37,076 nucleotides of DNA from Pseudobdellovibrionaceae bacterium (GTDB taxonomy: Bacteria > Bdellovibrionota > FAC87 > UBA2466), in contig JAHFAF010000014.1 of NCBI GenBank assembly GCA_023250715.1, positions 1-37,076 on the forward strand. Reading direction: 5' to 3'. Positions 7,184-35,862 of this stretch are shown here, one piece after another. The notes beneath the pieces are model-generated. The model saw nothing but the letters and a program-made list of their open reading frames with translations, was not told the DNA's origin and searched no databases. Both the position numbers and the translations under genes were made by a program. Position 1 is the first letter of the stretch. Each line of letters starts with the position of its first letter.

Positions 7184-7259
7184 CTACCTAGAACATCCTA
7201 AAAGGAAGTGGGTACCTAAAGCTACCTAGAACATCCTAAAAGGAAGTGGGTACCTAAAG
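7184..7259. repeat. Two perfect tandem copies of a 38-bp unit
   Basis: CTACCTAGAACATCCTAAAAGGAAGTGGGTACCTAAAG at 7184-7221 and again at 7222-7259. Confidence 0.97.
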
Positions 7260-10200: not shown

Positions 10201-13200
10201 GAAATATTCATGTGGCGTAGTTGCACTCGAGATTTTGTCCAGGCGAGCTCCGTCCCGCGCGTGAAAATATGGATGTCGTGGTATTTATCGGCGAGGCGCA
10301 ATGCCTCATCGCGAGACTGCGCCACCCCCGTGACGAAGCTCACTCGAGCTGTTTCTCCAGGATTGATGCGAATGGATTGCCTGAGTGAAAAAATGGGATC
10401 AAGAACGGAACCGACCGTGTCGGAAAGTGGGCGATCTTCGGTAATGACGAATGCGTTCGAAGGATTGCGGCCTCTTCCTAGGAATCGAGCCCTGTCCGTT
10501 TCGTATTGGACGGAGCCGACTGACTCCCCCTCGGTAACGACCCCGTGAAATCCCCAAATCTGCGCCTCGGCGTCGGATCGCTGTCGCCTGGTCGCAAGAA
10601 GAGTCTCCTCGACCGGCAGAAATTCGGTTTGAACGAAAAGATTGCTGAACGCTGGATGAGCGAGGTCATCTTGCGGTAATGCCAAAACAACTTCCATAAA
10701 ACTCGTGACCTCGTACTCCCTTACATCGGGGGAGTTATTCGTCAAAGAGATGCGACGGATTTCGACATTATCTTCAGGCGAGACGATAATTTCGCTGTGG
10801 GTGATCGTTCGTCCGTCCCTGCGCAGAAACTCGACCTTATCCTCTGAGAAAGTTACCTCATATTTTCTCGGGGAAATTCCGGCTGGGTGGTAACTCGTCG
10901 ACCAGACCAATCCAGTCGCACGGTTTCTTACATAAAAGTACTGCCCCCAATGATCTCGGGTGACATCTTCCCGCCAGCGGCTCACAGCGTAGGCACCGGA
11001 GCGCGAATACCCGGAGCCAGCAGTTGTGATCATGACCGAGTAGGTGCCATTGGAGAGCAGCTGCGTTCTAGGCGTCGGGAGATCGACGTCGGCGAAGACT
11101 CTGGGGTTCCAGTCCGTCGAAAAGCGCGTGCCCTGGTAGTGCACTTCCTCCGCCCTCGGTCGCGAAATAGTCACTCTCTGGGGAATGCGCTCCTGCAAAA
11201 GAAGCTGAGTTGCCTTTACCAAAGGCTCCGAATGAAAGCGCCTTTGCATGGGGTTGTCGTTCAAAAGATTGTTCATTGAAACCAGACTCATCCCTTGATG
11301 GTGCGCCATGAACGATCGCAGGATGAAGCTCTTCTGGTTTTTCGGGAGGCGCTCCGGTGTGTAGTCAATCGACTCGTAAAAGCCGTAACGGGAAAATGCG
11401 CCCTTCTCTTCCAGGTCTCGCAAGTTAGAAAGCGAACCCAAGGGATCGATAGGGGCGGCCAGCATCGTAGAGTAGGGGGAAACCACTAGATCGTCGCTCA
11501 AGCCACGCTTCAATCCCAGTCCAGGAATTCCGAAAGGGCCATACTGATAGATGAGCTGCAAATCGCGTGCATTAAAGCCAGCTTCAGAAACCCCCCACGG
11601 AACCCCTTGCTCTCTGCCATACTCGATTTGGCGGGACACGACAGCCTGATAAGTTTGATCGAGCAGTGTATCGGCGTAACGTCGCATCACCAGCAAAGGC
11701 ATAAGGTACTCGAACATCGTGCCGGTCCACGAGATCAAAGAGCGACCACCTTTTACCGATGTCATCTGTCGACCGAGCTTGAACCAATGTTCTTGTGGAA
11801 TATCGCCCTTGGCGATGGCCACGAAGCTCGTCAACCGTGACTCGGACGCCAGCAAATCATAGTAAGAATTATCGGGCCTGCCGTCACCGACGTTAAAACC
11901 AATGATGAAAAGCTTTCGCTGCTCATCGAATAAAAACTTAAAATCCATTGCAAGCGCCATCTCGTCGCATTTTTCAATAAGGTTTAATTGGCGATTGCGC
12001 AGGTCATCCGCGTTTTGCGTGGAGTCGTCCGACCAGGACGCAAGCTTCAAGAGATCGCGCTCGAATTCGTTCACTTGACGGAGTGCTGCATTTAGCCACA
12101 CGCGGACTTCCCGAAAAGGCTGGTCCGTGGCTTCTACCAACAAAGCATTCAGGATATCGTCGATATCCATCAAATTTTTCTTTACCGTGTGCAGAGAGCT
12201 GTCGTAGGAGATCAACGATTCCCAGGGACTTGCCTTCACAATATCGAGAGTTTCCCTCACAGCTCTCTGAAATTGCTGAAGACTGACCACGCCCGCGCTA
12301 TGCGCAACATTTTGAACTCGACTGGCCTCTACATTGAGTAGGTCCAGTGTATCGGCGAGGCCCTCTTGCGCTCGGGGATTGGTTGGAAAGTTATTTTCGC
12401 CAAGTTCGGAAATAGCCTGCTTGAGAGTGAGTAAATGCCCCGCCAGGTTTCCACTATCGACCGTGGAAACATACCGAGGCCTTAACGGCTCCAGAGTTTG
12501 CGTGTCATACCAGTTAAAGAAATGCCCGTGCTTGCGCTCGAGTTTTGCCAGAGTCGAAAACGTTTTTTCGATGGACTCGATGAATTCCAGAAGGCCTATA
12601 TAGCCTAGGTCATAGGCGGAGCTCAAAGAAAGTAACTGCAATCCGATATTGGTGGGGGACGTGCGGTGGGCCACCACCGGTTGCGGCTCTTCTTGAAAGT
12701 TATCCGGGGCCAGATAGTTATCCTGCTTAGTAACGAAGGTCTCGAAGAAATGCCATGTGCGTCGGGCGTAGAATCGAAAAGCTGCGACTTCAGCGGCTCC
12801 CAATGGACGCCTACGTTTTGTTGGTCTTTGCTTAATCCAAACTTTCAGAAATGGATTGCCGAGCCATGCAACAAGAAAGGGAGCCGCGACACCAAAGGCC
12901 TCGGGCCTACGAAATAAAATGAGCAGACTTGCCAGCCCAGCAACGATCGGGCCGGGACCCAGAGTATTCCTCCAGGATCTTGATTTGATCTTGCCTTCCT
13001 CTTGCGTCTCTTGCGACTCCGAGAAGCTTTTCCATTCCAGAAGTTTTTTATGACTAACAAACGTACGATAAAAGACGCGAACGATTGCGTCGATTTGATT
13101 CCACGCCTGCTCAGCCATGAAGACTAGCATTAGGAAAATTTGTTGTGCCTGGACCGTGGCCCCAGCCCAACTGTGTCCGATGTGTCCGCGCCAGGATACG

Positions 13201-15830
13201 CCTTGGCGGTGATGGAAAATATTGTTAGTGACCGTAGCGTAAACGGGAAAGGCAAAGAGAATCACTATCATCAACGTCCAGATGAGGGGCGATCCTGGAA
13301 GCACGGTCCATGCTAGGAGCAACCAAAGGAGAGCTGCGGTTGGCTCGAGACTGCGGCGGAGGTTGTCCAAAATTTTCCACTTAGAAAAGAGAGAGAGCGT
13401 ATTTTTGGCGAAAGCCGAGCGTGCGGTTGGAACATACGGAAATAGCCAGCGTGCGATTTGCCAATCGCCACGAATCCAACGGTGCTGTCTTCCCGAATAG
13501 GTCTCGTAGTCCGATGGGTAATCATCGAATAGTTCCACGTCGGAGACCAAGGCCGAGCGGGCAAAGCAACCCTCGAAGAGATCGTGACTCAAAAGGGTAT
13601 TCTCAGGAGCCCGGGCCTCTAGCGAGGCCTCGAAGGCATCGACTACATACAGTGCCTTACCTGTGTAACTGCCCTCTCCAAATAGATCCTGATACACATC
13701 CGAACAGGCCGTAGTGTACGGATCGAGGCCTGTGCTTCCCGAGAAGAGATGAGCGAAGCGAGTACGGCTGGCGCTTACCAACGATACACTAGCTCGCGGC
13801 TGCAAGATGCCGTAACCACGAACCACTCGCCTCTTCTCCGTGCTGAATTCAGGTTGATTGAGCGGATGAAGGATCGTTCCTATGAGCTGATGGGCTGCCC
13901 CTCTCGGAAGCTGAGTGTCGGAATCTAGCGTGATCACGTACTTTATCTTCGACAGAAACTCAGGCTCAGCAGTTGGGTCGAGGAAAGTAGTGTCGGTGGC
14001 GCGTCTTAACAGACGATTCAGCTCGTGCAGCTTTCCGCGCTTTCGCTCGTAGCCCATCCACTTGCCTTCGCAAGCATTGAATTTCCGGTGCCTGTGGAAA
14101 AGGAAAAAACGCTTTTCATTTTTGGTCCCATATTTTTCATTGAGTACGTCGATACCTTTGCGGGCCATCTTCAACAGCGCCGCGTCCTCGGGTAGCCGTT
14201 CCTGGTCCGCATCGCTAAAGTCGCCCAAGAGAGCGAAGTAAATATAAGGATCTTGGTTCGCAAGATAGTGGACTTCCAGTCCTTCGAGAAGGACCTGAAC
14301 GACACTCGCCTTCGAGAGAAGTGTCGGGACCACCACCATCGTCGCAGCCTCTTCAGGAATTCCTTCTTCCGTATCGAGCTTCGGCAGGGGTTTTGGCTTG
14401 AGAAGAAAGGCGACGCTGTGGTTGAGAATACTCAAGGCAAATTCGCTCGCAGGAATTAGCGCAAGCAAACAAAAAAGTAGACCTGCGAAAAAATCCCCCC
14501 CGGCATCCCTGAAATATTTCAGAACGGGCAACAAGAGCAGGAGTGTGAGTGCCGCGAGTGATACTAGGTAGACGAAAGTCGGGCGGCGCAGTACCCAGCG
14601 CGTAAGACGCTCCTCCAGGCGCGGCTGGTATTGAATGGACTTCTCGAAATCAACGCCGCCGTCTCCTATCAGGTAGTAGCCAACGTGAGACGACTTTTTG
14701 TGCTCGGCTTCCTTCGCGGCCTCAACGACACGTCGAACCACTTCGATCTCGCTCAACTTCGATCGCTTGGAGAGCCGCTCGACCGAATGCCGGTAGCGAT
14801 CTCTCGTCGCAAAATCCATCAGCCCGTACATCCCGGCCGGGTCTTCGTCCAAGATTGGATCGACCAAGCTCACGCTTTCGACAAAATCACGCCAGTCGAG
14901 AGCGGACAAAAGTCGCATACTCGAGATGATATTGCCCACCGTTACCTGGGCCGTGGCCTGCCGTTTGTGCTCTAGTTGAGTGACCTGCTCGGTGTGGGTG
15001 TCGTGGTGCTCTGCAAGCTGTTTTTCGAGCCAATCGAAGGCAGGTAATATGTCCGGATCTTGATCGCGCAGGCGCTGAGTCAGCTGCACAATGAAAGCAC
15101 GATCGAACTGACGAGGTTCTCCGACTTGAACCCGAAGGATCCTCAGCACGTCTTCAGTTTCGAGATCGGGCTGAACCGCTAGGGCTAAAAGCTCATCTGC
15201 TAGCGCATCCGCCTCGGCCCTCTTCTGCCTCGCGTTTACGATTCTTAGTGCCAGCGGAGTCAAGTGCTCAACGAGTGCGATACGCAGAGTGATCGCCGTG
15301 GCCCATAACTCACCGATGGTAAGAGGGGACTTACTTTGAAAAGAACGCAGGAAACGTTTTAGCGTCTCCACATCGAGTCGGCTGTCGGTGTGAGCGATAA
15401 TTGCAAGCGCTACCGCGTACACCCGTGGGTACCCTTGTAACTCTCCCGAAATGAGCTTCGGAAGCTCATCGTAATAACCCTTCGGCAGGTCTTGTTTGAT
15501 TTCCCGAAGCTGGTCTTCGACGATGTGAAAATTATCCACGAACCATTCGGCCGCAGGAGATACCTGCTCTTTGTCGCGGATAGCCTCTGTTAATTTCAGA
15601 TAGGCCGAAAGCAGCTGTCGCCCATTCTCCTTGAGCTGCGGCAAGATGAATCGCCCACGCTTAGGGGTGGGACTGACGTTGAGCTCGCCTGCCAAGTACG
15701 CTGCATATTGCTCGAGCCGTTCGATACTGAAGAACTCATCGCGAATGGGATCTTCATTCAGCAAATCGGTGGAACGCCGTAAAATCTGCAAGAAGTTGGC
15801 GTAAGTACGGTTGGTTTCAGCACTCAGCAT
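7254..15830 (-). CDS. ndvB: Cyclic beta-1,2-glucan synthase (NdvB/ChvB-like; GT84-type glycosyltransferase plus GH94-type phosphorylase region)
   Basis: 2858 aa. Glycosyltransferase part contains ...VITLDSDTQLPRGAAHQLIGTILHP... and RQHRWIRGDWQIARWL; C-terminal part contains GYTWSVNSRENRLTAWSNDAVTDPISEAIYIRDEETGEYWTPTPLP, GDWNDGMNRVGHEGKGESVWVAWFL, YPGVRENGGQYTHAAIW-like and GGWTWYTGSASWMYR motifs. Confidence 0.93.
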   Translation of the reverse strand: MLSAETNRTYANFLQILRRSTDLLNEDPIRDEFFSIERLEQYAAYLAGELNVSPTPKRGRFILPQLKENGRQLLSAYLKLTEAIRDKEQVSPAAEWFVDNFHIVEDQLREIKQDLPKGYYDELPKLISGELQGYPRVYAVALAIIAHTDSRLDVETLKRFLRSFQSKSPLTIGELWATAITLRIALVEHLTPLALRIVNARQKRAEADALADELLALAVQPDLETEDVLRILRVQVGEPRQFDRAFIVQLTQRLRDQDPDILPAFDWLEKQLAEHHDTHTEQVTQLEHKRQATAQVTVGNIISSMRLLSALDWRDFVESVSLVDPILDEDPAGMYGLMDFATRDRYRHSVERLSKRSKLSEIEVVRRVVEAAKEAEHKKSSHVGYYLIGDGGVDFEKSIQYQPRLEERLTRWVLRRPTFVYLVSLAALTLLLLLPVLKYFRDAGGDFFAGLLFCLLALIPASEFALSILNHSVAFLLKPKPLPKLDTEEGIPEEAATMVVVPTLLSKASVVQVLLEGLEVHYLANQDPYIYFALLGDFSDADQERLPEDAALLKMARKGIDVLNEKYGTKNEKRFFLFHRHRKFNACEGKWMGYERKRGKLHELNRLLRRATDTTFLDPTAEPEFLSKIKYVITLDSDTQLPRGAAHQLIGTILHPLNQPEFSTEKRRVVRGYGILQPRASVSLVSASRTRFAHLFSGSTGLDPYTTACSDVYQDLFGEGSYTGKALYVVDAFEASLEARAPENTLLSHDLFEGCFARSALVSDVELFDDYPSDYETYSGRQHRWIRGDWQIARWLFPYVPTARSAFAKNTLSLFSKWKILDNLRRSLEPTAALLWLLLAWTVLPGSPLIWTLMIVILFAFPVYATVTNNIFHHRQGVSWRGHIGHSWAGATVQAQQIFLMLVFMAEQAWNQIDAIVRVFYRTFVSHKKLLEWKSFSESQETQEEGKIKSRSWRNTLGPGPIVAGLASLLILFRRPEAFGVAAPFLVAWLGNPFLKVWIKQRPTKRRRPLGAAEVAAFRFYARRTWHFFETFVTKQDNYLAPDNFQEEPQPVVAHRTSPTNIGLQLLSLSSAYDLGYIGLLEFIESIEKTFSTLAKLERKHGHFFNWYDTQTLEPLRPRYVSTVDSGNLAGHLLTLKQAISELGENNFPTNPRAQEGLADTLDLLNVEASRVQNVAHSAGVVSLQQFQRAVRETLDIVKASPWESLISYDSSLHTVKKNLMDIDDILNALLVEATDQPFREVRVWLNAALRQVNEFERDLLKLASWSDDSTQNADDLRNRQLNLIEKCDEMALAMDFKFLFDEQRKLFIIGFNVGDGRPDNSYYDLLASESRLTSFVAIAKGDIPQEHWFKLGRQMTSVKGGRSLISWTGTMFEYLMPLLVMRRYADTLLDQTYQAVVSRQIEYGREQGVPWGVSEAGFNARDLQLIYQYGPFGIPGLGLKRGLSDDLVVSPYSTMLAAPIDPLGSLSNLRDLEEKGAFSRYGFYESIDYTPERLPKNQKSFILRSFMAHHQGMSLVSMNNLLNDNPMQRRFHSEPLVKATQLLLQERIPQRVTISRPRAEEVHYQGTRFSTDWNPRVFADVDLPTPRTQLLSNGTYSVMITTAGSGYSRSGAYAVSRWREDVTRDHWGQYFYVRNRATGLVWSTSYHPAGISPRKYEVTFSEDKVEFLRRDGRTITHSEIIVSPEDNVEIRRISLTNNSPDVREYEVTSFMEVVLALPQDDLAHPAFSNLFVQTEFLPVEETLLATRRQRSDAEAQIWGFHGVVTEGESVGSVQYETDRARFLGRGRNPSNAFVITEDRPLSDTVGSVLDPIFSLRQSIRINPGETARVSFVTGVAQSRDEALRLADKYHDIHIFTRGTELAWTKSRVQLRHMNISSDEAHTFQRLAGRVIYSDPSLRARPHTLALNNKTQAGLWAYGISGDLPIVLARINNEKDMRMVRELLHAHEYLRLKGLTFDLVLLNETAPSYLQALQEEMQKQIRMSGSQALVDKPGGVFVRRADIIPKEDITLLKAVARVDINSEKGTLQEQIKRRSIEEVLPDPLIPTRAKHQEPAIAPIIAPLEFFNGLGGFTEGGRHYVTVLNEGQWTPAPWINVIANEKDFGFIISESGAGYTWSVNSRENRLTAWSNDAVTDPISEAIYIRDEETGEYWTPTPLPIRGKGTFVIKHGQGYSQFEHSSHGISSELQIFVPLDAEVKLSYLRLKNTSTFTRQLSVTSYLEWVLGSQRDFSSAHVLTERDPDSGMLLARNRYNNEFHDRLAFSFMSGTPESFTCDRKAFLGRNRSPARPAGLGRESLSGLSGAGLDPCAALQKKFALAPGEEREVLIVLGQVNHIEEARELTRRFDSTTNVRAAFNQVTAYWDEVLGTIEIKTPDIAMNTLMNRWLLYQTLSCRVWARSAFYQSGGAYGFRDQLQDVMALTYSKPQIARAQILTAAARQFEEGDVQHWWHPPTGRGVRTHFSDDLLWLPFVTSFYVEKTGDHSILRELVPFIEGPPLDLALDSAYLQPTLSKEKATVLEHCVRALDRSLKVGSHGLPLMGTGDWNDGMNRVGHEGKGESVWVAWFLHTTLEKFIGLMGESEKNRASVYRAHMEKLRKAIEENAWDGDWYRRAYFDDGTPLGSATSQECRIDSIAQSWAVLSGAGNPQRAKHAMAAVDQFLIDRGEGLVKLFTPPFDKSPTDPGYIKGYVPGVRENGGQYTHAAIWTLMAFAQQGDGDRAGELYGLLNPINHSSSRAGLNKYKVEPYVVAADVYGMFPHIGRGGWTWYTGSASWMYRAGLESILGFELRADRLRISPCIPKAWRGFEMVYQRGTSTYSIIVTNQTSNSERYVELDGVRMESQDILLVDDGKRHAVHVFL

Positions 15831-20512: not shown

Positions 20513-20583
20513 ACCGTACTTTCACCTAACCGACGGAAAAGGGGAAATATTTTCTAGCCTAACTCCCTCGACAGATGCATGCG

Positions 20584-20597
20584 CACTTTCTAAAGTG
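20584..20597. promoter_or_regulatory. Inverted repeat CACTTT-ct-AAAGTG just upstream of the first hydrogenase operon ORF
   Basis: Read directly; perfect 6-bp arms, ending 7 bp before the ATG at 20605. Confidence 0.4.
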
Positions 20598-20604
20598 GTG
20601 GGCT

Positions 20605-21084
20605 ATGGAAGTGCATGGATTAGACACAATCTTACGCGATCACCCTTTCTTCAAAGGCCTCCCCGAATCTTTCTTAAAAACAGTCACCGGTTGCGCGAAG
20701 ACGGTGCGTTTTAAGGAGGGGGAATTTCTATTTCGTGAAAAGGGAAGCGCGAACGAATTCTATTTACTGCGAGAGGGGCAAATTGTCCTCGAAGTAAACT
20801 CTCCTAAATTCGGCCCTCTTCCGATTCAAACGCTCCACGAAGGCGAAGTAGTGGGTTGGGCGTGGCTCTTTCCACCCTACGAATGGTATTTCGATGCCCG
20901 AGTACAAAAGCCTCTCAGGGCCATCTCCATAGATGGTGCTTGCCTTCGAACCAAATGCGAAAAAGATCCCGCACTCGGGTATGAGCTCATGAAGCGTTTT
21001 GCCGGCATCATGATTCGCAACATGCAATCCACTCGGCTGCAATATCTCGACGCCGTCGAAGAATGCAGGGAACGGCATGGCTAA
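20605..21084 (+). CDS. Cyclic nucleotide-binding (Crp-type cNMP) domain protein, no apparent HTH domain
   Basis: HPFFKGLPESFLKTVTGCAKTVRFKEGEFLFREKGSANEFYLLREGQIVL is a cNMP-domain N-terminus; only 159 aa, ending before a DNA-binding domain. Confidence 0.82.
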   Translation: MEVHGLDTILRDHPFFKGLPESFLKTVTGCAKTVRFKEGEFLFREKGSANEFYLLREGQIVLEVNSPKFGPLPIQTLHEGEVVGWAWLFPPYEWYFDARVQKPLRAISIDGACLRTKCEKDPALGYELMKRFAGIMIRNMQSTRLQYLDAVEECRERHG

Positions 21085-22207
21085 AGACTTCCAACGCCTC
21101 GAAATCAAGCGATCCGACTTCAGGAATCTTTTTGAGATCCTTAAGGATAGAGGTTTTTCAATCATCGGACCGACCGTGCACGAAGGCGTAATCATTTATG
21201 ACGAGCTAAAAAGCGTCGACGATTTGCCCATCGGTTGGACGGATGTTCAGGAACCCGGAAAATACCGCTTGGAAAAGCGTGGCGATGAAGCACTCTTTGG
21301 ATTTACTGTAGGACCCCATTCTTGGAAAAAGTATCTCTTTCCTCCCGAGCGGCGGCTTTGGCAGGCCAATCGACAGGGAAGGTCTATCGATATCACGAGT
21401 GAGCCGTTGCCGAAGACGAAGTATGCCTTCCTGGGCGTTCGCGCCTGCGAGCTTCATGCGCTCCTTATTCAAGATAAGGTATTTTTAGAAGGGGATTCGA
21501 CGGATCCCTATTACGCGCAGATTCGAAAGAATAGCTTGGTCATTGGAATCCATTGCGGGCAATCCGGAAACACCTGTTTCTGCGTCTCCATGAACACAGG
21601 TCCGCGAGTTTCATTAGGCTACGATCTCGTCCTCACGGAAGTGCTGACCTCTTCTTCGCATAGTTTTTATCTCGAAGCGGGCAGCGAAAAAGGAAGCACG
21701 ATTACCAAAGCCTTGAAAGCTCCTCTCGCGCCCAGGCTTTCAGATAAGACAATTGACGATATTGTCCAAAATGCCGTGGCGGGAATGAAGCGAAGCCTCA
21801 ATACCGATGGCATCAAGCAATTGCTTTATACCAATATGGCTAATCCTAGATGGGAGGAAGTCGCGCAAAAGTGTCTTTCCTGCGCCAACTGCACGATGGC
21901 ATGCCCCACCTGCTTCTGCAGTACGGTGGAAGAGACTAGCGATCTCAGCGGCGATCATGCCGAGAGATGGAAGAAGTGGGATTCCTGTTTTACATCGGAT
22001 TTTTCTTACGTCCACGGCGGTTCGGTTCGAACATCGACGATGTCCCGGTACCGGCAGTGGATGACCCACAAGCTCGCCTCCTGGCAGGATCAATTTGATA
22101 CCTCGGGTTGCGTGGGATGTGGCCGGTGTATCACCTGGTGTCCGGTCGGAATTGATATCACCGAAGAGGCGAATGCCATCCGCCTAAACCCTGTGGCGGA
22201 GAGGTAG
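21077..22207 (+). CDS. hyhB: Group 3b-type hydrogenase/sulfhydrogenase beta subunit (4Fe-4S, AsrA-like)
   Basis: CLSCANCTMACPTCFC and CVGCGRCITWCP ferredoxin motifs; first electron-transfer gene in a HyhBGSL-order operon. Confidence 0.87.
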   Translation: MAKDFQRLEIKRSDFRNLFEILKDRGFSIIGPTVHEGVIIYDELKSVDDLPIGWTDVQEPGKYRLEKRGDEALFGFTVGPHSWKKYLFPPERRLWQANRQGRSIDITSEPLPKTKYAFLGVRACELHALLIQDKVFLEGDSTDPYYAQIRKNSLVIGIHCGQSGNTCFCVSMNTGPRVSLGYDLVLTEVLTSSSHSFYLEAGSEKGSTITKALKAPLAPRLSDKTIDDIVQNAVAGMKRSLNTDGIKQLLYTNMANPRWEEVAQKCLSCANCTMACPTCFCSTVEETSDLSGDHAERWKKWDSCFTSDFSYVHGGSVRTSTMSRYRQWMTHKLASWQDQFDTSGCVGCGRCITWCPVGIDITEEANAIRLNPVAER

Positions 22208-22209
22208 CA

Positions 22210-23040
22210 GTGCCACCTCGGGAGCCCATGCAACCTGAATTTTGTCGCATCAAGAAACGATCGCAGGAGTCGGATGATGTGTTTACACTCGAATTAGACC
22301 TACCCAGAAAATCAGCGAAAGCACGATTTGTTCCCGGTCAATTTAATATGCTCTATGCCTTTGGTATAGGAGAAGTGGCTATTTCGATTAGCGGGAATCC
22401 GCACGACAAAAGGCGTTGGGTCCATACCATTCGCTCCGTGGGCGCCACCACTCATGCTATTTCTAAATTGAAGGTAGGCGATCCCCTGGGGGTTCGGGGT
22501 CCTTACGGTACGGGATGGCCCATTGAAGAAGCGAAGGGCTCCGATATTATTTTTGTCGCGGGCGGCCTGGGCCTAGCTCCGCTTCGCCCCGCTATTCATC
22601 ACGTGAAAGAGCATCGAAAGAAATACGGCAGCATCACAGTTCTTTACGGAGCGCGATCCTATCGCGACTTACTTTTTCAAAAAGAGATCCCTCAGTGGAG
22701 GAAGGCTGGAATTGATGTATTCGTTGCCCTAAGCCAGGCGGATCGGAAATGGAAGGGAACGGTAGGACACATTACGAGACTCCTCGAACGAATCAATATT
22801 TTCCCTGAAAAGACCTCCGCCTTTCTCTGTGGGCCTGAAATTATGATGCGCTTCGGAACCAGCGGACTGGAACAGCGGGGTGTTTCGGCTTCACGAATGT
22901 TTCTATCCATGGAGAGGAACATGAAATGTGCGATAGGATTTTGCGGGCACTGCCAGCTTGGACCTGCTTTTATCTGTAAGGATGGCCCCGTTTTGTCCTA
23001 TGAAAAATTGGAGCCCTTGATGCGGGTGCGCGAGCTATGA
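22210..23040 (+). CDS. hyhG: Hydrogenase/sulfhydrogenase gamma subunit (FAD/NAD(P)-binding)
   Basis: [18 protein letters not shown] nucleotide-binding motif and C-terminal [17 protein letters not shown] 2Fe-2S motif (PyrK/HyhG-like). Confidence 0.88.
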
Positions 23041-23819
23041 AAAGGCGTAAACCAAAACTCGCTGTTTGGAAATTTGCCTCCTGTGATGGCTGCCAGCTCA
23101 CTTTGCTCGATTGCGAAGATCATTTGCTTGCCGTTGCACAGGAAATAGAAATCGCCAATTTTCCGGAAGCGTCTAGAGCCGTGGTAGCGGGGCCTTACGA
23201 TCTATCACTCGTCGAAGGGTCTATCACCACCCCGCACGACAAAGAGAGAATCCACGAGATTCGAAAGCAGTCCAAGTTTCTCATCACGATTGGCGCATGT
23301 GCCACCTCAGGCGGCATTCAGGCATTACGCAATTTCAAGGACGTAAAGGAGTTCACTTCGATCGTTTACGCGAAACCTGAGTACATCAGTACCCTGGCGA
23401 CTTCCACCGCCATTTCCGATCACATTAAAGTCGATTTCGAATTGCGGGGCTGCCCCATCGATAAAAAGCAACTCATCGAAGTCATCACGGCCTATCTTTG
23501 GCACCGAAAGCCGCAAGTTGTGGCCGATTCCGTGTGCATCGAGTGCAAACGAAAAGGGAATGTCTGTGTCATGGTGGCCCACGGAACGCCTTGCTTAGGG
23601 CCCGTGACCCACGCCGGGTGCAACGCTCTTTGCCCTACTTACGATCGCGGTTGTTACGCATGCTTTGGGCCGAAGGAAAACAGTAATCCCGAATCTCTTG
23701 CTCGACACCTTCAAAAGGAATTTCGCATTCCCACTCCCGAGGCGATACGTGCTTTAAGATCCTTTAATTGCTGGGCGGAGCCCTTTCGAAAAGCAAGTCA
23801 GGGACTGGAATCGCCATGA
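23037..23819 (+). CDS. hyhS: [NiFe] hydrogenase small (delta) subunit
   Basis: [42 protein letters not shown] and [17 protein letters not shown] cluster ligand motifs. Confidence 0.92.
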
Positions 23820-25117
23820 GCAAGAAAATTATCGAAGTAAAATACTTGGCGCGAGTGGAGGGGGAAGGCGGCCTTCGAATCTCTATAGAGAACAAAAAAA
23901 TCAAAGATCTCGAGCTTCGGATTTTCGAGCCACCGCGATTCTTCGAAGCGTTTTTGCAAGGGCGTTCTTTCAACGAAGCGCCCGATATCACCTCGCGTAT
24001 TTGCGGAATCTGTCCCGTCGCCTATCAGACGAGTGCCGCAAGTGCCATCGAAGATGCCTGTCAGTTTTCGATCAGTGAATCCACGCGGACTTTGCGTCGC
24101 CTTCTCTATCTGGGCGAGTGGATCGAAAGCCATTCACTTCACATGTACATGCTGCACGCGCCGGATTTTCTTGGGTACGAGAGCGGCATACACATGGCGA
24201 AGGACTATCCGAAGGAAGTGAAACAGGGGTTAGAGCTCAAAAAAATTGGGAATGAGCTTATGTCGCTGGTGGGAGGAAGAGAAATCCATCCCATTAATAT
24301 GAAAGTGGGTGGCTTTTATCGCTTTCCCAGGAAGAGGGAATTGGAGAATTTTCTCCCCCGACTAGAAAAGGCGCAAGAACTAGCCGAAAAAACGGTGAAG
24401 CTCGTGAGCACCTTTCCCTTTCCGGACTTCACGCGGGATTATGAGTATGTCTCCCTACGATCCCCGCATAACGAGTATCCTGTCGAGGGTGGAAGGGTGG
24501 TTTCTAATCGTGGACTCGACATTGATGTCTCAGACTATGAAAAGCACTTTGAAGAGATCCATGTGCCGCATTCGACGGCACTACATTCCGTACACAAGGG
24601 ATTCGGTTCCTACCATGTCGGCCCCTTGGCTCGGCTCGCGTTGAATTTCGATAGATTGACTCCGAAGGCCCGCGAGCTCGCGGAAAAAGTAGGGTGGAAT
24701 CCGAAAAATCAAAATCCCTTCCGCAGTATCGTAGCCCGTGCGATTGAGGTGCTCTACGCTTGCGAGGAAGGAATCCGACTCGCTGGGGCGTACGTTGAAC
24801 CTAGCTCTGAAATGAAGGCAAGAGTCGTGCAGGCAAGGCCCGCAACGGGGATGGGAATCTCGGAAGCCCCGCGGGGAATACTCTACCATCGGTACCGCTT
24901 GAACGCGGACGGAACGATCGCGGAAGCCAAGATCACGCCACCTACTTCACAGAATCAAAGCTGCATCGAGACCGACCTCCGGGAATTGGTGAGCGCTCGC
25001 ATGTCGTGGGGCAAAGACAAGATCACGCGCCTTTGCGAGCAAGCCATTCGTAACTATGATCCTTGTATCTCTTGTTCCACCCATTTCTTAAAGGTGACTT
25101 GGGAGGAAAAACAATGA
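23816..25117 (+). CDS. hyhL: [NiFe] hydrogenase large (alpha) subunit, group 3b-like
   Basis: L1 motif [14 protein letters not shown] and L2 motif [10 protein letters not shown], followed by a short C-terminal peptide LKVTWEEKQ. Confidence 0.95.
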
Positions 25118-25566
25118 CTCTAGTCATAGGCGTTGGAAACACACTACGATCGGATGATGGACTTGGGGTAAGAGTCGCCGAAGAGATTCAAAAGCTTAAA
25201 TTGAAGGATGTCGAAGTCCTTACTTCCCGAGGGGAAAATATCGATCTTTTGACACTCTGGAAAGGGTATCGGCGCGTTGTAATACTGGATGCGATGGAAT
25301 CGCATTCCAAGGAGCCGGTGAAAGTATTTTTTGCTCATGCGGAGCCGTTGCCTGCGGCTTTCGAAAAGACATCCACTCACGGCATGGGTCCACTCGAGTG
25401 CATTGAGCTGGCCCGCGCATTGGGAGAACTTCCTCCCTATCTTGCGGTAATCGGTATCGCCGGGAAAAACTTTGAAATCGGAGAAAGCTTGACGGAGAAA
25501 GCTACCCAAGCGATTCCCAAAGCAATTCAAATATTTTCTACTCTCCTCGGAGGCACCCATGCATGA
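25114..25566 (+). CDS. Hydrogenase maturation endopeptidase (HycI/HyaD family)
   Basis: [25 protein letters not shown] and VVILDAMESH are typical of the M52 protease; ATGA overlap with hyhL. Confidence 0.9.
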   Translation: MTLVIGVGNTLRSDDGLGVRVAEEIQKLKLKDVEVLTSRGENIDLLTLWKGYRRVVILDAMESHSKEPVKVFFAHAEPLPAAFEKTSTHGMGPLECIELARALGELPPYLAVIGIAGKNFEIGESLTEKATQAIPKAIQIFSTLLGGTHA

Positions 25567-25822
25567 AGCCCATTTGATTACCGATCTGATTAAGAAAGTC
25601 GAAGCAATCGCGTCCGAAAACGGAGTTAAAAAAGTGACCAAAATCAAAGTGAAGTTAGGGGCACTCTCACATTTTACCCCCGAACACTTTCAGGAACATT
25701 TTGATTTTGCCTCTCCCGGGACTTTGGCAGCTGGCGCAGCCCTTGAGATGACTCTTTCGCCAGACATGGAAGATCCCGAAGCACAAAACGTTTACTTGGA
25801 AAGTATCGAGGTAGAAGAGTAA
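25559..25822 (+). CDS. hypA: Short HypA-like nickel maturation protein lacking the zinc-binding CxxC pairs
   Basis: MHEAHLITDLIKKVEAIASENGVKKVTKIKVKLGALSHFTPEHFQEHFD matches the HypA N-terminal domain (MHE nickel motif kept); the 87-aa ORF contains no cysteine. Confidence 0.75.
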   Translation: MHEAHLITDLIKKVEAIASENGVKKVTKIKVKLGALSHFTPEHFQEHFDFASPGTLAAGAALEMTLSPDMEDPEAQNVYLESIEVEE

Positions 25823-28024
25823 ATGCAGCGACGACGGCTGGAAATCTCCGGTGACGTACAGGGTCGCGGCTTTCGCCCGTTATTTTATCGGCTAGCGAAA
25901 AGACATGCCCTTTCGGGTTGGGTAAAGAACGCCCAACATCAAGTGCTCGTCGAAGTGCAGGGGGAAATCAATTCGCTCGAGAACTTTGAAATGCAAGCCC
26001 GTGAGCTCTTTTCTCAAGGCGCTGAAATTACTTCCTCCCCTCGCCCGGTAGAGGCTTCGACAAATGCTTTTTCGATTACTTCATCGGAAACGGGCTTTTC
26101 TCGAATTGGGGATCTGCCCGTAGATATTGCCACCTGCCCCGAGTGCCTAGATGAACTGAACGACCCGGCGAATCGCAGGTTCCATTACCCATTTATCAAC
26201 TGTGCAGCGTGCGGGCCTAGATATTCGATCACCGAAGCGATGCCCTACGATCGGGTGCGAACTTCCATGAGTGACTTTCCCTTGTGCTCGAGTTGCCTGT
26301 CCGAGTATGAAAATGAGAGCGATCGCCGTTTTCACGCCGAGACAATCTCCTGTTGGGACTGTGGTCCTACACTTGAGTTATGGGACAAAGAAAGTTGCAG
26401 CTTGAGTAAGAAAGCGGGAGCCTTGACTCAAGCTGTAGAGTTGCTCGAGGCCGGCAAGATCATTGCCGTAAAGGGCGTGGGGGGCTTTCACCTTATGGTG
26501 GACCCAGAGAATAGAGCCTCAGTGGAAAACCTCAGACAAAGAAAAACACGACCGCACAAGCCGTTCGCTGTTCTCTTTCCCAACCTGAGTTCGTTAATGG
26601 AAGTCACTCACGCTTCAGACGATGAAAAAAGAGAACTCTTATCTTCGGCCGCCCCGATCGTCCTATTGAATGCCAAGTCCGAGGGAAAACTCGCCTCAGC
26701 CATGGTGCCCGGCGGAAATTTGATCGGAGCTTTTCTTCCCTCTAATTCCCTTCACCATTTGCTTTGCGCCAGATTTTCTCGCCCCCTCATCGCCACGAGC
26801 GCAAATCGAAAGGGAGAGCCACTGTGTTTTGATGAGCGGAGCGCGGTGAAGCAATTGAATGGAATTGCTGATTACTTTTTGGTTCATAATCGATCCATTC
26901 TTCGTCCTGTAGATGATTCCATCTTGCGCTGGATGGGAAGCCATCGGACACTTTTGCGAAGAGCACGCGGCTATTCATCCCGAATTTCAAATCTCGAAAG
27001 CAAGGAAGCGCACTTTGGAGCCGGGAGTTTTCTAAAAAATACCTGCGCCTGGACAGAAAAAGGCTCTCTTTTCTTGAGTCCGCATTTAGGCGACATGGAG
27101 CATCCTGAGACCCATCGACTTTGGAACAGACGCTACGAAGAAACATTCAACGGTGAGGAGAACACAGTAGTACTCGATCTTCACCCCGATTATCCCGGTC
27201 ATTCTCTTAAAAATAAACAGATTCGAGTCCAGCATCACAAGGCCCATGTCCTATCGGGTATGGTCGACCAACGCCTCTCGCCGCCTTTTTTAGGAGTAGC
27301 ATGGGACGGTTCCGGGCTCGGCGATGATGGCAAGCTCTGGGGCGGTGAATTTTTTGAAGTGGAGCGAGGAAACATAGATCGAGTTGCAAGCTTTCGACCT
27401 TTTCCGCTTTTAGGGGGCGAAAGAGCAGTGCGCGATCCCCGTAGAGTGGCTCTTAGTCTTTTATGGGAATCGGAAGTTCCTTCCCCGCAACTTGAATACT
27501 CTGAACGAGAATTAGATGTACTGCGGGGAATGTTTGATAAACAAATTCAGAGCCCTCTCTGTAGCAGTGTCGGAAGAATATTCGATGGTCTGGCGGCAAT
27601 TACGGGGATCTCTCTGCAAAATTCGTTTGAAGGGCATGCGGCGAGCTTGGTCGAAGCAAAAGGTTCTCGCTGGCACGAGCAGGAGGAGCCCTATGTTTTT
27701 CTTCAAGAAGAACAACTTTTGGATTGGCGCCCCATGATTCGCGAGATCTCGCGCGAAGTGATCCATGGGATTGCGATAGAAAGAATCTGCTATCGCTTTC
27801 ACTTGACCCTAGCCGACATGATCGTGGCGATAGCCCGCCAGCATAACCAAAGAAGAGTCCTTCTCACGGGCGGCTGTTTTCAAAACGCAGTACTCACCCG
27901 ATTGGCAGTGCAGCGGCTGGAAGAAAATGGGATCACCCCTTACTGGCATAGCGAAATCCCGCCCAACGACGGTGGGCTTTCCGTAGGTCAGGTCATAGCG
28001 GGACTGGAGGGACTATGTGTCTAG
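25823..28024 (+). CDS. hypF: Carbamoyltransferase HypF
   Basis: Acylphosphatase motif GDVQGRGFRPLFYRLA; zinc fingers CPECLDELN...CAACGPRYSI and CSSCLSEY...CWDCGP; VQHHKAHVLSGM Kae1-like domain; GGCFQNAVL. Confidence 0.95.
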   Translation: MQRRRLEISGDVQGRGFRPLFYRLAKRHALSGWVKNAQHQVLVEVQGEINSLENFEMQARELFSQGAEITSSPRPVEASTNAFSITSSETGFSRIGDLPVDIATCPECLDELNDPANRRFHYPFINCAACGPRYSITEAMPYDRVRTSMSDFPLCSSCLSEYENESDRRFHAETISCWDCGPTLELWDKESCSLSKKAGALTQAVELLEAGKIIAVKGVGGFHLMVDPENRASVENLRQRKTRPHKPFAVLFPNLSSLMEVTHASDDEKRELLSSAAPIVLLNAKSEGKLASAMVPGGNLIGAFLPSNSLHHLLCARFSRPLIATSANRKGEPLCFDERSAVKQLNGIADYFLVHNRSILRPVDDSILRWMGSHRTLLRRARGYSSRISNLESKEAHFGAGSFLKNTCAWTEKGSLFLSPHLGDMEHPETHRLWNRRYEETFNGEENTVVLDLHPDYPGHSLKNKQIRVQHHKAHVLSGMVDQRLSPPFLGVAWDGSGLGDDGKLWGGEFFEVERGNIDRVASFRPFPLLGGERAVRDPRRVALSLLWESEVPSPQLEYSERELDVLRGMFDKQIQSPLCSSVGRIFDGLAAITGISLQNSFEGHAASLVEAKGSRWHEQEEPYVFLQEEQLLDWRPMIREISREVIHGIAIERICYRFHLTLADMIVAIARQHNQRRVLLTGGCFQNAVLTRLAVQRLEENGITPYWHSEIPPNDGGLSVGQVIAGLEGLCV

Positions 28025-28242
28025 CAATTCCTGGAAAAATCTTAAATCTCGACGACAATGCTCCCCCGTTCCGCGTGGGAAAAGTGGAGTTTGGCGAATT
28101 GGTTAAGGAGATCAATTTGTCTTTCGTTCCTGAGGCAAAAATCGGGGATTACATCATTGCCCACGTTGGCGTTGCGATTCAGCTTATCGATCAGGGGGAA
28201 GCCCGGCGCACCTTACAGCTCATCGAAGAGGCGATGAAGTGA
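28015..28242 (+). CDS. hypC: Hydrogenase maturation chaperone HypC
   Basis: [11 protein letters not shown]-terminus and [16 protein letters not shown]. Confidence 0.95.
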
Positions 28243-29339
28243 AATACGTCGACGAATTTCGAGACAAAGATCGTGTAGCAGGTTTAGCTTCCACCATCGC
28301 GAGAGAGGCTCGACACCCCTGGCGCCTCATGGAAGTCTGCGGCGGGCAGACGCACTCCATTATGAAATATGGGATTGGGGAACTACTTCCCGAGAACGTG
28401 GAACTTTTGCACGGTCCTGGTTGTCCCGTTTGCGTTACTCCCATTGCCTGGATAGACAAGGCGATTGAGATTGGACAGTTACCAAACACCATTCTCGCTT
28501 CCTTCGGGGATATGTTGCGGGTTCCCGGCTCCCGCACGGATCTTTTGCAAGCAAAGGCGAAGGGGGGCGATATTCGTATCGTCTATTCTCCCTTGGATGT
28601 TTTAGCGATTGCGCAAAGTAATCCTGATATCGAAGTAGTTTTTTTCAGCGTGGGGTTTGAAACCACGGCACCCGCGACAGCAGCCCTTTTACTCCAAGCC
28701 AAATTAAAGAAAATTCCCAACCTTTCCTTGCTGGTTTGCCACGTGCTTGTCCCTCCCGCACTGAGAGCTTTATTGGATTCCGCGGATTGCCGCGTGGATG
28801 GATTCTTAGCGGCGGGCCATGTTTGTACCGTCATGGGCTATGAAGAGTATCTGCCGATTGCGGCCCGCTACCAGGTTCCCATTGTGGTCACGGGGTTTGA
28901 ACCGGTGGATATTTTGGAAGGAATTTTATCTTGTGTTCGGCAATTGGAAACTGGACGCTTTGAGGTAGAAAACCAGTATGCCCGAGCCGTACGCAAAGAG
29001 GGAAACACCCACGCTCTTTCATTAATGAAGGAGGTCTTTCAGTCCACAAACCGCTCGTGGCGGGGCATGGGCGAAATTGCGGAAAGTGGTCTTTCTCTGC
29101 AACCGGCCTACGCAATGTTCGATGCGGAAAAGCGATTCGGGCCCGTCTTGCCTTTTGACGAAGTCTCCTCGGGCTGTATCAGCGGTCTTGTTTTACAGGG
29201 AGTAAAAAAGCCGCCCGAATGCCAGGAGTTCGGGAAAAAGTGTCGCCCCGAAAATCCCCTTGGAGCGCCCATGGTTTCGACAGAAGGGGCTTGTTCCGCC
29301 TATTTCCGCTATCAAAAAAGAGAGAGTCTCCATGGATGA
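28239..29339 (+). CDS. hypD: Hydrogenase maturation protein HypD
   Basis: [64 protein letters not shown]. Confidence 0.96.
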
Positions 29340-30369
29340 ATTTCTCTGTCCCCTCCCTTTTGGTTCCCCCTCTCACATCGTCATGGGGCACGGTGCGGGC
29401 GGGCGAATGACACAAACTCTTATTCGAGAGATTTTTTTGAGAGCCCTTGGAAACCCGAACGAAGAAGGACATGACTCCGAGGTATTTTCTCCAGAATCCT
29501 CTCGCCTTGCCATTACGACGGATGGGTTTGTGGTGCGGCCATTGTTCTTTCCAGGTGGGGACATCGGTTCCTTGGCTGTTTTCGGAACGATAAACGACTT
29601 AGCCATGAGCGGAGCAGTGCCTCGTCACCTTACCGCGAGTTTTATTCTCGAAGAGGGACTTCCCCTAGAGACTTTGAGCAAAATTGTTTTTTCGATGAAG
29701 CGCGCGCTTGAAACGACGGGCGCACGTCTCATCGCCGGAGACACTAAGGTGGTCGAGAAAGGAAAAGGAGATGGGTTATATCTTTCCATGAGCGGTGTCG
29801 GCGAGATTCATCATTCTTTAAAAATCGCAGCGAGCTCAATTCAGGCGCGGGATTGCATTTTGATTACGGGGGATGTGGGACGCCATGGAATTGCCGTGAT
29901 GAACGCACGTGAGAAACTTTTTCCTGAGACTGAAATCCTTTCAGATTGCGCAGCCCTCTCGGCACCTGTTCAAGCCCTCATTCAAGCGGGCGTTGAGGTA
30001 CATTGCTTGAGAGATCTCACTCGGGGGGGATTAGCCACAGCACTTGTGGAACTGGCGGAGGCGAGCGGATATGAGTTCGCGATTGAGGAAGAAAGGATAG
30101 TAGTCGCCTCCCAGGTCCGTTCGGCTTGCGAACTCTTAGGCCTCGATCCCTGTTATGTCGCGAATGAAGGGCGCTTTATCGCTATCCTTCCCGAGCAACA
30201 AGCGGAGCAGGCTCTTTGGACTCTAAGAGAATTCGAAGTCACTCGTGGGGCGACAGTCATCGGCCGCGTGCAAAATCGTCGTACCCATTCTGTGGTGCTA
30301 AAAACCGCCTATGGAACCGAGAGAATGTTGGATCGCCTAAGCGGCGATATGCTGCCTCGGATTTGTTAA
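29332..30369 (+). CDS. hypE: Hydrogenase maturation protein HypE
   Basis: [43 protein letters not shown]-terminal PRIC. Confidence 0.96.
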
Positions 30370-32703: not shown

Positions 32704-34299
32704 CTAAGGGAGGTTTTCTCGGAATTTGGCGGTTAAGACTTGGCGGGCACTGACGATGGTTTCTTTGGCGGCGCCGCGGGAGCTGGTGATTTGCTGTTCG
32801 ACCAGCTCGCGGCGCTTTTGCGGCAACGCATTTAAGAAAACTTTCACTGCTTCTCCATCACATGAGACCATGGCCAAGCTCAAGAGTTCGTTGTCGACGT
32901 CGTTGAATACCTTTTCCGAGATCTCCACGCCCAGCTGAGCGGCATCCTCGAGCTTGAATTTCAACTTTTTCAATTGAGGCAGCATATCGGACTGGGTCTT
33001 CTCGAGAGTTTCGACAAGCTTATCCTGCTCCTTCGACTCGCCAACCACCTGGCCCCAAAAGGCGGAGTCTTCCGAACCAAGTGCAAAAAAATGATTGGGA
33101 AGATGCCGTATCGAGCTTCTCACCTGAGCTTCAATCGAAGCGATTTCCGAAAAGGCTGATGATTTCAAAGCGGGAACATGGGAGAGAATTTCCAGTTGCT
33201 TCTCTTTCGGGAAATTATCCAAAATAGTGGCTGCCTGCCCCGGCTTCATGAATCGAAGCATAAGGCATACTGTCTTCGAATCTTCGTGTTGAGCAAGCGC
33301 GGCGAGTTGCTCGTCCGTAAGATAGGTAAGAAAGCCGAAGAGTTGCTTGTCCTGCCAATTGCTCATCTCGACGAATTCCTCGAAATTCTTCTCATGCCAG
33401 AGAATGCGATCCCGTTTTACCTCTTCACTCACCCCAGCTTGCGCCTTTGGAATCCCCAAGCCGAGTCTCTCGAGAACACTCTCGAAAGCGGGCCCTTTGA
33501 GAAAGGAATAGATCTCCAAGCGATGCTCCGGAGCCAAGCGAGAGTAATATCCCCGAAAACAGTCCCCTCGAAGTACGATTTGGCTTAAAAGCATTTTTCG
33601 AGTCTCTTCACTCTCCTGGATCGAAAAGAAGTCTTTTATTTCATTCGAGCTCTCAGGAGGAGGAGTCGGTTTCGCGATTTCGGGAGCAGGTGAAACAGCG
33701 GCGGGAATCGTTAGAAACTGTTTAGAATTACCTCGGCGGATCATTAAGAACATCAAAAGACAGGCGCTTGCGAGCCAACCGAGCCATTGATTAGTGGGAA
33801 TTTCTCGTTCCCACCACTCAGGCTTCAGCATCGTAACTTCTGTCACTCGGACCGTGCCTAACTCGGAATAATTCGTATTAATGTAAGCACCCGCAAGCGC
33901 GCGGGCCTGATTCAAGACATTTTCGGGGAGTTTATCGTCGACTTGGATCTGGACACGAATTGCTTCCAAGGTAGGAGTTTCGACAAAACGATAGACCTGC
34001 CGTTCTTCTTTCGTAGGTGAGGTGCTTTTTACTTCCGGCTCCGGGACGAATCCTGCCGTCACTTCGGCGGCAGGCCGTCTAGTTACTTCGGCATTCGATC
34101 CGACCGTCGTTTCCGCTTCGAACATTTTCTTTGAGGAATGGGTACTGACTTCAACGTTTACCTGAACAAGATATTGATTCTTGCGAATGATACGAGAGAG
34201 ACTGCTCTCTAAGTCCGCCTTTACTTTGGTCTCAACGAGATAAGGATCCCCGCTCGTCGCAAAAGCTAGGGAAGAGAAGAGAAGGAAGAGCGCCTTCAT
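32704..34299 (-). CDS. FliF (RBM3/YscJ_FliF_C-like)-TM-FliG-like chimeric membrane protein
   Basis: Signal peptide MKALFLLFSSLAFA; FliF-like VKADLESSLSRIIRKNQYLVQVNVEV and EAIRVQIQVDDKL...ALAGAYINTNYSELGTVRVTEVTM; TM WLGWLASACLLMFLMIRR; FliG-like LAALAQHEDSKTVCLMLRFMKPGQAATILDNFPKEKQLEILSHV and VFNDVDNELLSLAMVSCDGEAVKVFLNALPQKRRELVEQQI. Confidence 0.7.
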   Translation of the reverse strand: MKALFLLFSSLAFATSGDPYLVETKVKADLESSLSRIIRKNQYLVQVNVEVSTHSSKKMFEAETTVGSNAEVTRRPAAEVTAGFVPEPEVKSTSPTKEERQVYRFVETPTLEAIRVQIQVDDKLPENVLNQARALAGAYINTNYSELGTVRVTEVTMLKPEWWEREIPTNQWLGWLASACLLMFLMIRRGNSKQFLTIPAAVSPAPEIAKPTPPPESSNEIKDFFSIQESEETRKMLLSQIVLRGDCFRGYYSRLAPEHRLEIYSFLKGPAFESVLERLGLGIPKAQAGVSEEVKRDRILWHEKNFEEFVEMSNWQDKQLFGFLTYLTDEQLAALAQHEDSKTVCLMLRFMKPGQAATILDNFPKEKQLEILSHVPALKSSAFSEIASIEAQVRSSIRHLPNHFFALGSEDSAFWGQVVGESKEQDKLVETLEKTQSDMLPQLKKLKFKLEDAAQLGVEISEKVFNDVDNELLSLAMVSCDGEAVKVFLNALPQKRRELVEQQITSSRGAAKETIVSARQVLTAKFRENLP

Positions 34300-34916
34300 T
34301 TCACCTTCTCCAATAGCCGCTTCACTTGTTTGTCTTGCTCCGACAAGGAGTAGGCCTTTTCCCACGCGTTTTTCGCCAGGTCTTTAAAGCCTTGCACGTA
34401 GAAAAGCGTTCCTTTCATCACCCAACCACGGGTGAGCTTCGGGTTTCGCTTCAATAACTCATCCACTTTAACGGTCGCCGTAAAGTAATCCCCTCGATTG
34501 AAAAGATGATTCGCTTCCAGGATTAGCCGATCGGAATCGTCATATTGAGCCACTCCTAACGGCTCTTCCGGAGGAAGAGAGGCCGCCCTTCTATCCGCCT
34601 TTTCAAGCTCCGCGGTGGCGATGGAATTGGGAGTGGGCGTCGGGCTTGCTTCCACGACAGGAGGGACGGGATTTGTCGGCGCCATGCTAGTTTCCGGAAC
34701 GACTGATGGGTTCGGAGTCGGTGGCGGGGGCCTAAGATCTGCGACCGGAATTTGAATCCGATAGCTTTTCGGGCGTTCTTCGGAGCCAGGATCGAAAACG
34801 ATGGTCTTTTCTCCCGTTGGCGTCACGATCGCCAAAGCATCGGGAGGTGTTTTCATACGAAATTCCTCCGCCTGTAATGCGGGGGTAAGGAGCAAAATGA
34901 GGATCGAAAATTTCAT
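34296..34916 (-). CDS. Exported Pro-rich protein with C-terminal TPR-like repeats
   Basis: Signal peptide MKFSILILLLTPALQA; PPPPTPNPSVVPETSMAPTNPVPPVVEASPTPTP linker; LILEANHLFNRGDYFTATVKVDELLKRNPKLTRGWVMKGTLFYVQGFKDLAKNAWEKAYSL TPR pattern. 4-bp overlap with the downstream gene. Confidence 0.7.
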   Translation of the reverse strand: MKFSILILLLTPALQAEEFRMKTPPDALAIVTPTGEKTIVFDPGSEERPKSYRIQIPVADLRPPPPTPNPSVVPETSMAPTNPVPPVVEASPTPTPNSIATAELEKADRRAASLPPEEPLGVAQYDDSDRLILEANHLFNRGDYFTATVKVDELLKRNPKLTRGWVMKGTLFYVQGFKDLAKNAWEKAYSLSEQDKQVKRLLEKVK

Positions 34917-34920
34917 TTTC

Positions 34921-35862
34921 CTAACGTCCAAAGGCAATCCCCACGTGGAAACCGGCATAAGAAGGAATTGCTGGCTTCGTGGAACCCGAGCTCACGACAT
35001 AATTTCCTTCGACTCCAAAGACAGCCCACGATCCCCAAAAGATCTCAAATGAAATTCTGGTGTCGAGCCCCTTAAATCCGCCGACAAATCCGTATCCAAG
35101 TCCTGGCATGAGCGCATAGGACATTCCGGAATTTCCAAAATGTCCTCGAAAAGAGATTGTTGGAACCACATAGATTAAGGTGCCTAGGGTGGAGGAAATG
35201 ACAGCACCCGTAGTAAGGCCCGCTTTTGCAAAACCCACTTCTTCTAAGAGGGAGGCATTTCCGCAGGGAGTAAAATCTTGAGGGCCTGAATTCGGAAGGA
35301 CCATTCCCGCCCCGAAAGTCAGAAGAATTTGCGCGGAAGAATCCGAAAGATTTAACGCCGGAACGGAGAAACGCTCCACCCCCAGCATGTCCCCACTCTG
35401 GGCATCGAGGAGTTGTCCTTGGGCCTCCATCCGAAGTTTCGTTCGATATAAATCGATGATGAGAAAAGCCTGAACGGGCTGCTTGCCGGCGACTCGCTTG
35501 AGAGTCTCCGCATCAGCAACACCAGCGCTCACAATCACCTTGTCGTCCTTCACGGTAACGTAGGGATTTCTGCATTCCATGCAGGTCTGCACTTTGTTGA
35601 TCCCCCGATCGGAGAGACCTTTTCTGAGCTCCGTTTCAAAATAGCGAGAGTGCTCCGGATCGAGCGGGCCGCTTAAATTAATGGCGAATATGGATAGGCT
35701 TTCTGGCTTGATGCCGTCGATCCAAGAAGCCATCTGCTCACCCAAATAGTGCATCGCCACGAGCTCGGCCTCTTCCGGCGCTTTCCCAAAGGCAGACGAC
35801 GCAAAGGTGAGGAAAAAACTCAGCGCCACCACCGCAAAAATGAGAGGACGGAAACCCTTCAC
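34921..35862 (-). CDS. Exported CsgG/FlgO-like N-terminal domain protein with probable outer-membrane-type C-terminus
   Basis: Signal peptide; RYFETELRKGLSDRGINKVQT...ADAETLKRVAGKQPVQAFLIIDLYRTKLRMEAQGQLLDAQSGDML resembles the CsgG/FlgO alpha-beta fold; Gly/aromatic-rich C-terminus ending AGFHVGIAFGR. Confidence 0.5.
   Translation of the reverse strand: MKGFRPLIFAVVALSFFLTFASSAFGKAPEEAELVAMHYLGEQMASWIDGIKPESLSIFAINLSGPLDPEHSRYFETELRKGLSDRGINKVQTCMECRNPYVTVKDDKVIVSAGVADAETLKRVAGKQPVQAFLIIDLYRTKLRMEAQGQLLDAQSGDMLGVERFSVPALNLSDSSAQILLTFGAGMVLPNSGPQDFTPCGNASLLEEVGFAKAGLTTGAVISSTLGTLIYVVPTISFRGHFGNSGMSYALMPGLGYGFVGGFKGLDTRISFEIFWGSWAVFGVEGNYVVSSGSTKPAIPSYAGFHVGIAFGR

Follow-up and report, generated by a model that had tools for sequence, protein, structure and literature searches.

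The described systems closest to the locus reported here are the flagellar rotor with its MotAB stators and the 5:2 motors ExbBD, TolQR, AglRQS, GldLM, and ZorAB. In the relevant sections of PMC9389320 and PMC12505986, none of these five motors is named as driving a FliG ring. A 2025 survey (PMC12199754) records that rotor proteins also occur where the genome encodes no filament, and asks whether these proteins serve some other function. In the open-access literature searched, neither a FliG-driven rotary machine outside the flagellum nor a published description of a system such as the present one was found, and a description that escaped us remains possible. How the flagellar motor arose from simpler parts has long been asked. 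A minimal unit of rotor, stator, and outer-membrane protein makes this question directly testable, and the presence of a relative in a cultured predator, presumed to be Bdellovibrio bacteriovorus HD100, adds to the testability.

The locus is a trio of genes on the minus strand of the window, which is the whole analysed stretch of 37,076 nucleotides. All three ORFs are intact: gene 1 at 34921-35862 (a predicted outer-membrane protein of 313 aa), gene 2 at 34296-34916 (a putative periplasmic protein of 206 aa), and gene 3 at 32704-34299 (a rotor-like protein of 531 aa). Genes 2 and 3 share 4 bp (34296-34299), each of the three proteins has a signal-peptide-like start, and the codon-position G+C is normal, being close to that of the neighbouring genes. 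Most of the remaining ORFs of the window were scanned against protein families, and no further flagellar gene was detected among them. These scans gave no genes for the export apparatus, rod, hook, or filament, and none was recognised in the clusters of relatives. The window trio has no adjoining motA or motB, and no motAB remnants are present in the window. We favour, with moderate confidence, the reading that the trio supplies a rotor, together with its partners in the envelope, for a small rotary machine powered by MotAB and distinct from the flagellum.

Other genes fill the remainder of the window. A NiFe hydrogenase cluster with hypF, hypC, hypD, hypE, and a HycI-type protease lies at 20575-30369, and a gene at 7254-15830 encodes a protein of 2858 aa that combines GH94 with glucoamylase domains and resembles cyclic beta-1,2-glucan synthase. 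An AbiEii-type nucleotidyltransferase and its neighbour at 1279-2768 are a possible type IV toxin-antitoxin pair. The window also encodes a formate-THF ligase.

Gene 3 consists of a signal peptide, an RBM3-like domain, a short hydrophobic segment, FliG_M, and FliG_C, in this order. The two FliG domains (about residues 329-526; 32719-33315, minus strand) pass the Pfam cut-offs with E values of 1.8e-9 and 8.3e-12, respectively, and a profile built from six members of the gene 3 family matches 1lkv, the structure of the FliG middle and C-terminal domains, with E 4.5e-25. No Pfam match to FliG_N was obtained. FliG_N is the domain that binds FliF, and gene 3 carries its own membrane anchor. The hydrophobic segment follows the RBM3-like domain at about residues 173-189, has RR directly behind it, and is weaker than in some relatives.

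The assignment of an RBM3-like ring domain to gene 3 (residues ~19-160; 33820-34245, minus strand) rests on AF2, Foldseek, and a chain of hhalign comparisons. The N-terminus has no match to Pfam YscJ_FliF or FliF_C, and RBM1, RBM2, and the N-terminal TM of FliF were not detected; the only YscJ_FliF match in the source genome is the canonical FliF. The AF2 model, with five input sequences and a mean pLDDT of 67.7, places a helix, a strand, a long loop, a strand, a helix, and a strand in the same order as in FliF RBM3, followed by a helix and then the FliG helices. When this model is searched against the PDB with Foldseek, FliG is at the top (best E 4e-8), a block of FliF RBM3 rings comes after it (E 5e-4 to 3e-3, prob 1.00), and SpoIIIAG is next as a weak match. 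The direct sequence-profile match of the N-terminus to FliF (E 0.02) is too weak on its own, and thus the fold search was combined with a chain through the type-2 family described below. The N-terminal domain of gene 3 aligns with the type-2 N-terminus at an hhalign score of 35.3 (shuffles at most 15.6), and the type-2 family aligns with FliF RBM3, including the C-terminal GD motif, at 35.9 (shuffles at most 22.7). All 60 shuffles used as controls fell below the real scores.

The conserved charges of the FliG torque helix (K264, R281, D288/D289, and R297) are not kept as a set in the seven family sequences. Only position 281 is mostly basic (five of seven), with a neighbouring Arg in all seven. 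D288/D289 and R297 are lost, and therefore any contact with MotA would have changed. On the MotA side, the alignment at R90 and E98 is not reliable. This partial retention of residues that are known to meet MotA counts against the machine reading.

Gene 1 is predicted to have a signal peptide, an N-terminal alpha/beta domain (about residues 29-170), and an 8-strand beta-barrel (about residues 177-312), with a mean AF2 pLDDT of 72.9. In Foldseek searches, the periplasmic domain is closest to LpoB (C-domain, E 3e-5), GNA1162, and TolB-N, and the barrel half is closest to the barrels of NspA, OprF, and OmpA; no single solved structure matched both halves. Orthologues in relatives are 38-44% identical. 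The model thus predicts an outer-membrane protein with an LpoB/TolB-N/CsgG-like domain and an 8-strand barrel. The models of both gene 1 and gene 3 come from few sequences and are of medium confidence, which is a further point against the machine reading. A CsgG secretion channel, which would have a CsgG domain and a large shared barrel, does not fit the predicted 8-strand barrel and the lack of a Pfam CsgG match. Gene 2 comprises a signal peptide, a conserved N-terminal segment, a Pro-rich linker, and a C-terminal TPR region. Its Pfam TPR_2 match (E 0.0015) is under the curated cut-off, and its orthologues are found at the same place in relatives.

An earlier note, made from the sequence alone, had anticipated much of this. 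Its three minus-strand genes with signal peptides and a 4-bp overlap of the last two held on re-checking the ORFs, and its statement that the window has no further flagellar genes held within the scans mentioned above. The FliG-like M and C segments, the Pro-rich TPR protein, the barrel-like C-terminus of gene 1, and the lack of RBM1/RBM2 and the usual N-terminal TM of FliF were likewise borne out. The claimed resemblance of the gene 3 N-terminus to the ring-building C-terminal part of FliF is supported by fold and hhalign chain without a Pfam match, and the structural and profile matches to FliF RBM3 and FliG leave the reading unrefuted. The single TM helix that it assigned to gene 3 is present as the hydrophobic segment, in the weaker form noted above. 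The description of gene 1 as a CsgG/FlgO-like exported protein held only in part, as the domain matches LpoB/TolB-N and not CsgG itself. The LpoB/TolB-N and CsgG folds are related.

The trio is conserved in the same order in other genera of the family, namely in genomes G001, G003, G004, and G006 (contigs JACQOU010000225, JALHPX010000279, JACPWY010000019, and JAIEOG010000156 are listed for them), with gene 1 of G006 on a separate contig. A second copy in the source genome is divided between contigs C539 and C278, which we infer to join into one copy. Their composition fits the source genome, and contamination, estimated at 8.6%, is not excluded. In the four relatives and in this second copy, the rotor gene is directly followed by genes for MotA (~258 aa) and MotB (~212 aa); the contig of G003 ends inside motB. 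Downstream of the trio, motA and motB are present in every full relative and missing from the window copy, which is the most divergent member of its set. The operon MotA matches PF01618 (E ~1e-20) and groups on the MotA side in a clade distinct from the E. coli-type flagellar MotA of the source genome. The operon MotB has a plug and an OmpA domain; the Asp of the plug and the cell-wall motif GHTD/NW/R are both kept. The expected stator features, a channel domain in MotA and a plug, channel Asp, and OmpA cell-wall domain in MotB, are present in the relatives and the second copy and not in the window. All five genes are also present in the same order in G172 (locus L101), a member of another family, even though its rotor protein is only ~20% identical. 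A genome scan with a single protein as query gave no match, and an alignment that includes the L101 protein leaves no segment with enough conservation for such a scan.

Gene content, domains, and a gene order conserved with motAB in relatives are thus shown. This conservation of the trio outside the source genome is again no refutation of the earlier note, which had omitted MotA and MotB; its reading held but was incomplete. With stator genes beside the trio in relatives, the trans-envelope complex that it proposed becomes a probable rotary motor, and this suggests that the envelope houses a second rotary machine in addition to the flagellum. On the other side, the five genes are rarely found in their tight form (in 6 of 369 Bdellovibrionota genomes), and adjoining motAB genes are lacking in the window copy, in G004:C21, and in a few type-2 loci.

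The absence from the window copy bears on a rival reading, in which RBM3 and FliG form a static ring of a non-rotary envelope scaffold or sensor and the window copy is a diverging or decaying paralogue. The loss of D288/D289 and R297 favours it, as do the divergence, weak membrane segment, and missing motAB of the window copy. Against it stand the motAB genes downstream of all other full copies, the three intact ORFs with normal codon-position G+C, and the invariant residues of the trio proteins, which are kept across genera. The static scaffold is considered very unlikely.

Several other loci with FliG or MotAB components were observed in these genomes. The G004:C21 locus (L043:9949-10764) encodes a protein of 271 aa in which a membrane helix at the N-terminus is combined with FliG_M/FliG_C, and RBM3 is lacking. 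Contig C112 of the source genome (L037:12238-15948) has genes for a 672-aa signal/TM protein with a weak FliG_C, MotA, MotB, and a HAMP-SpoIIE protein. In two further clusters of G003 (L146:3903-8557 and L141:3827-7632), MotA and MotB are accompanied by TPR or lipoprotein partners, and a FliG was not recognised in either. A stand-alone FliG_C protein of ~145 aa is present in many Bdellovibrionota (L153, L154, and L155; e.g., L153:4507-4938), with an epimerase-like neighbour in three loci.

Looser forms of the cluster are more widespread. In G041 (L150), from a third family, the order is a barrel-like protein, a TPR protein, a 766-aa TM/FliG protein, a cNMP-binding protein, MotA, and MotB. The cyclic-nucleotide-binding protein between the FliG-like gene and motA (L150:7547-8116) suggests nucleotide control of that motor. 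Type-2 proteins occur in 26 of the 369 genomes of the phylum, in five families, and their genes are often near those for MotA, MotB, and a TPR lipoprotein. Similar to the window trio family, the type-2 clusters contain a protein with a signal peptide, an RBM3-like domain, a TM, and FliG_M/C, together with a TPR protein, MotA, and MotB. In contrast, their gene order is different, the TPR protein is lipoprotein-like, and small barrel-like proteins replace the LpoB-barrel protein. One type-2 gene is located at ~2.914 Mb of a 3,782,950-base genome, which we take to be that of B. bacteriovorus HD100, with a motB-motA pair ~3 kb away. We take this pair to be Bd3020/Bd3021, as order and place fit; it is probably motA2/motB2 (PMC11323537), which an earlier study reportedly found to contribute to swimming.

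The carriers tested also have flagellar genes. The source genome has a canonical FliF-FliG pair on another contig, plus FlhA, and the tight-cluster relatives have FliF and FlhA elsewhere in the genome. By PF08345, these relatives have one FliF per genome and none at the clusters. FlhA also occurs in another 24 genomes that carry type-2 or looser clusters. The only genome without it, G173, is incomplete and has no more of the cluster than a lone gene-1 relative. Since the flagellar genes are elsewhere in the carriers, the trio system is an extra system beside the flagellum. A remnant of a degraded flagellar locus might be suggested by flagellar-type domains in a window without other flagellar genes, and the earlier note had named such decay of a nearby locus as grounds for giving up its reading. 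The canonical FliF/FliG on another contig, the FlhA, and a multi-gene order kept across genera and families all but exclude it, and the remnant reading is rejected.

A flagellar accessory module is a more serious rival. In this reading, the proteins would add a ring, a scaffold, and alternative stators to the flagellar basal body, much like the TPR and outer-membrane disk proteins of the Campylobacter and Vibrio motors. All rotor carriers tested have FlhA, which favours it, and its TPR protein and LpoB-like outer-membrane protein are reminiscent of PflA and FlgO. The flagellar operons of B. bacteriovorus encode a protein with a PflA-like architecture (PMC5758724), and the type-2 cluster of the presumed HD100 is near the motAB pair that reportedly aids swimming. 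On the contrary, the trio supplies a membrane-anchored FliG and an RBM3 of its own, parts that a flagellum already possesses, and its genes are distant from the flagellar clusters. Moreover, the operon MotA clade is distinct from flagellar MotA, and the module is absent from most flagellated genomes of the phylum. The accessory module is judged unlikely. Independence from the flagellum is nevertheless unproven: every rotor carrier tested is flagellated, which leaves room for a role at the flagellum.

In the preferred rotary-machine reading, gene 3 would form a ring with the RBM3-like domain in the periplasm, one helix across the inner membrane, and the FliG domains in the cytoplasm. By analogy with the flagellum, ion-driven MotA5B2 units held to the cell wall by the OmpA domain of MotB would push the FliG ring, and the periplasmic RBM3 ring would turn together with it. 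The TPR protein may transmit the motion to the outer-membrane barrel protein or brace the ring against it. Because the cluster is without genes for an export apparatus, rod, hook, or filament, the machine probably delivers its output inside the envelope, with work done there or on the outer membrane. Lacking motAB, the window copy may borrow the stators of the second copy or of the flagellum, or it may be a diverging paralogue. Ring formation, torque and rotation, contacts among the proteins, the output, and action apart from the flagellum are all inferred. The earlier proposal of a reduced inner-ring/C-ring-like protein with partners in a non-flagellar envelope complex is largely supported, with ring formation and independence still inferences. 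A bolder reading, which could as readily prove wrong as right, is a non-flagellar rotary motor, complete in itself, that uses MotAB stators and a rotor of the FliF/FliG type and acts on the outer membrane, with several variants across Bdellovibrionota and one in the cultured Bdellovibrio lineage.

A Zorya-like defence system, with the long ZorA tail and ZorC/D/E, was also considered and rejected: the ZorB match reflects MotB only, the ZorA match has E 0.046, and the trio has no PADLOC match.

When compared to known systems, the trio system shares folds with several of them. SpoIIIAG and the injectisome ring proteins have ring-building RBM folds outside flagella, with no FliG part and no MotAB. 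Outer-membrane and periplasmic proteins such as LpoB, the TolB N-domain, and CsgG, and the OmpA-like 8-strand barrels, have the folds predicted for the two halves of gene 1. The 5:2 motors are similar in being ion-driven units of the MotA/B family on the envelope; in contrast to them, the operon MotB has the OmpA-type domain of flagellar stators. The flagellar rotor of FliF RBM3 and FliG with MotAB has the RBM3 fold, the membrane helix, FliG_M/FliG_C, and MotA/MotB with plug and OmpA cell-wall domain in common with the trio system. In contrast to the flagellum, the trio cluster lacks FliM/FliN and the export apparatus, rod, hook, and filament, the torque-helix acidic residues are lost, and the rotor is one fused protein with a signal peptide, without RBM1/RBM2 or a detected FliG_N.
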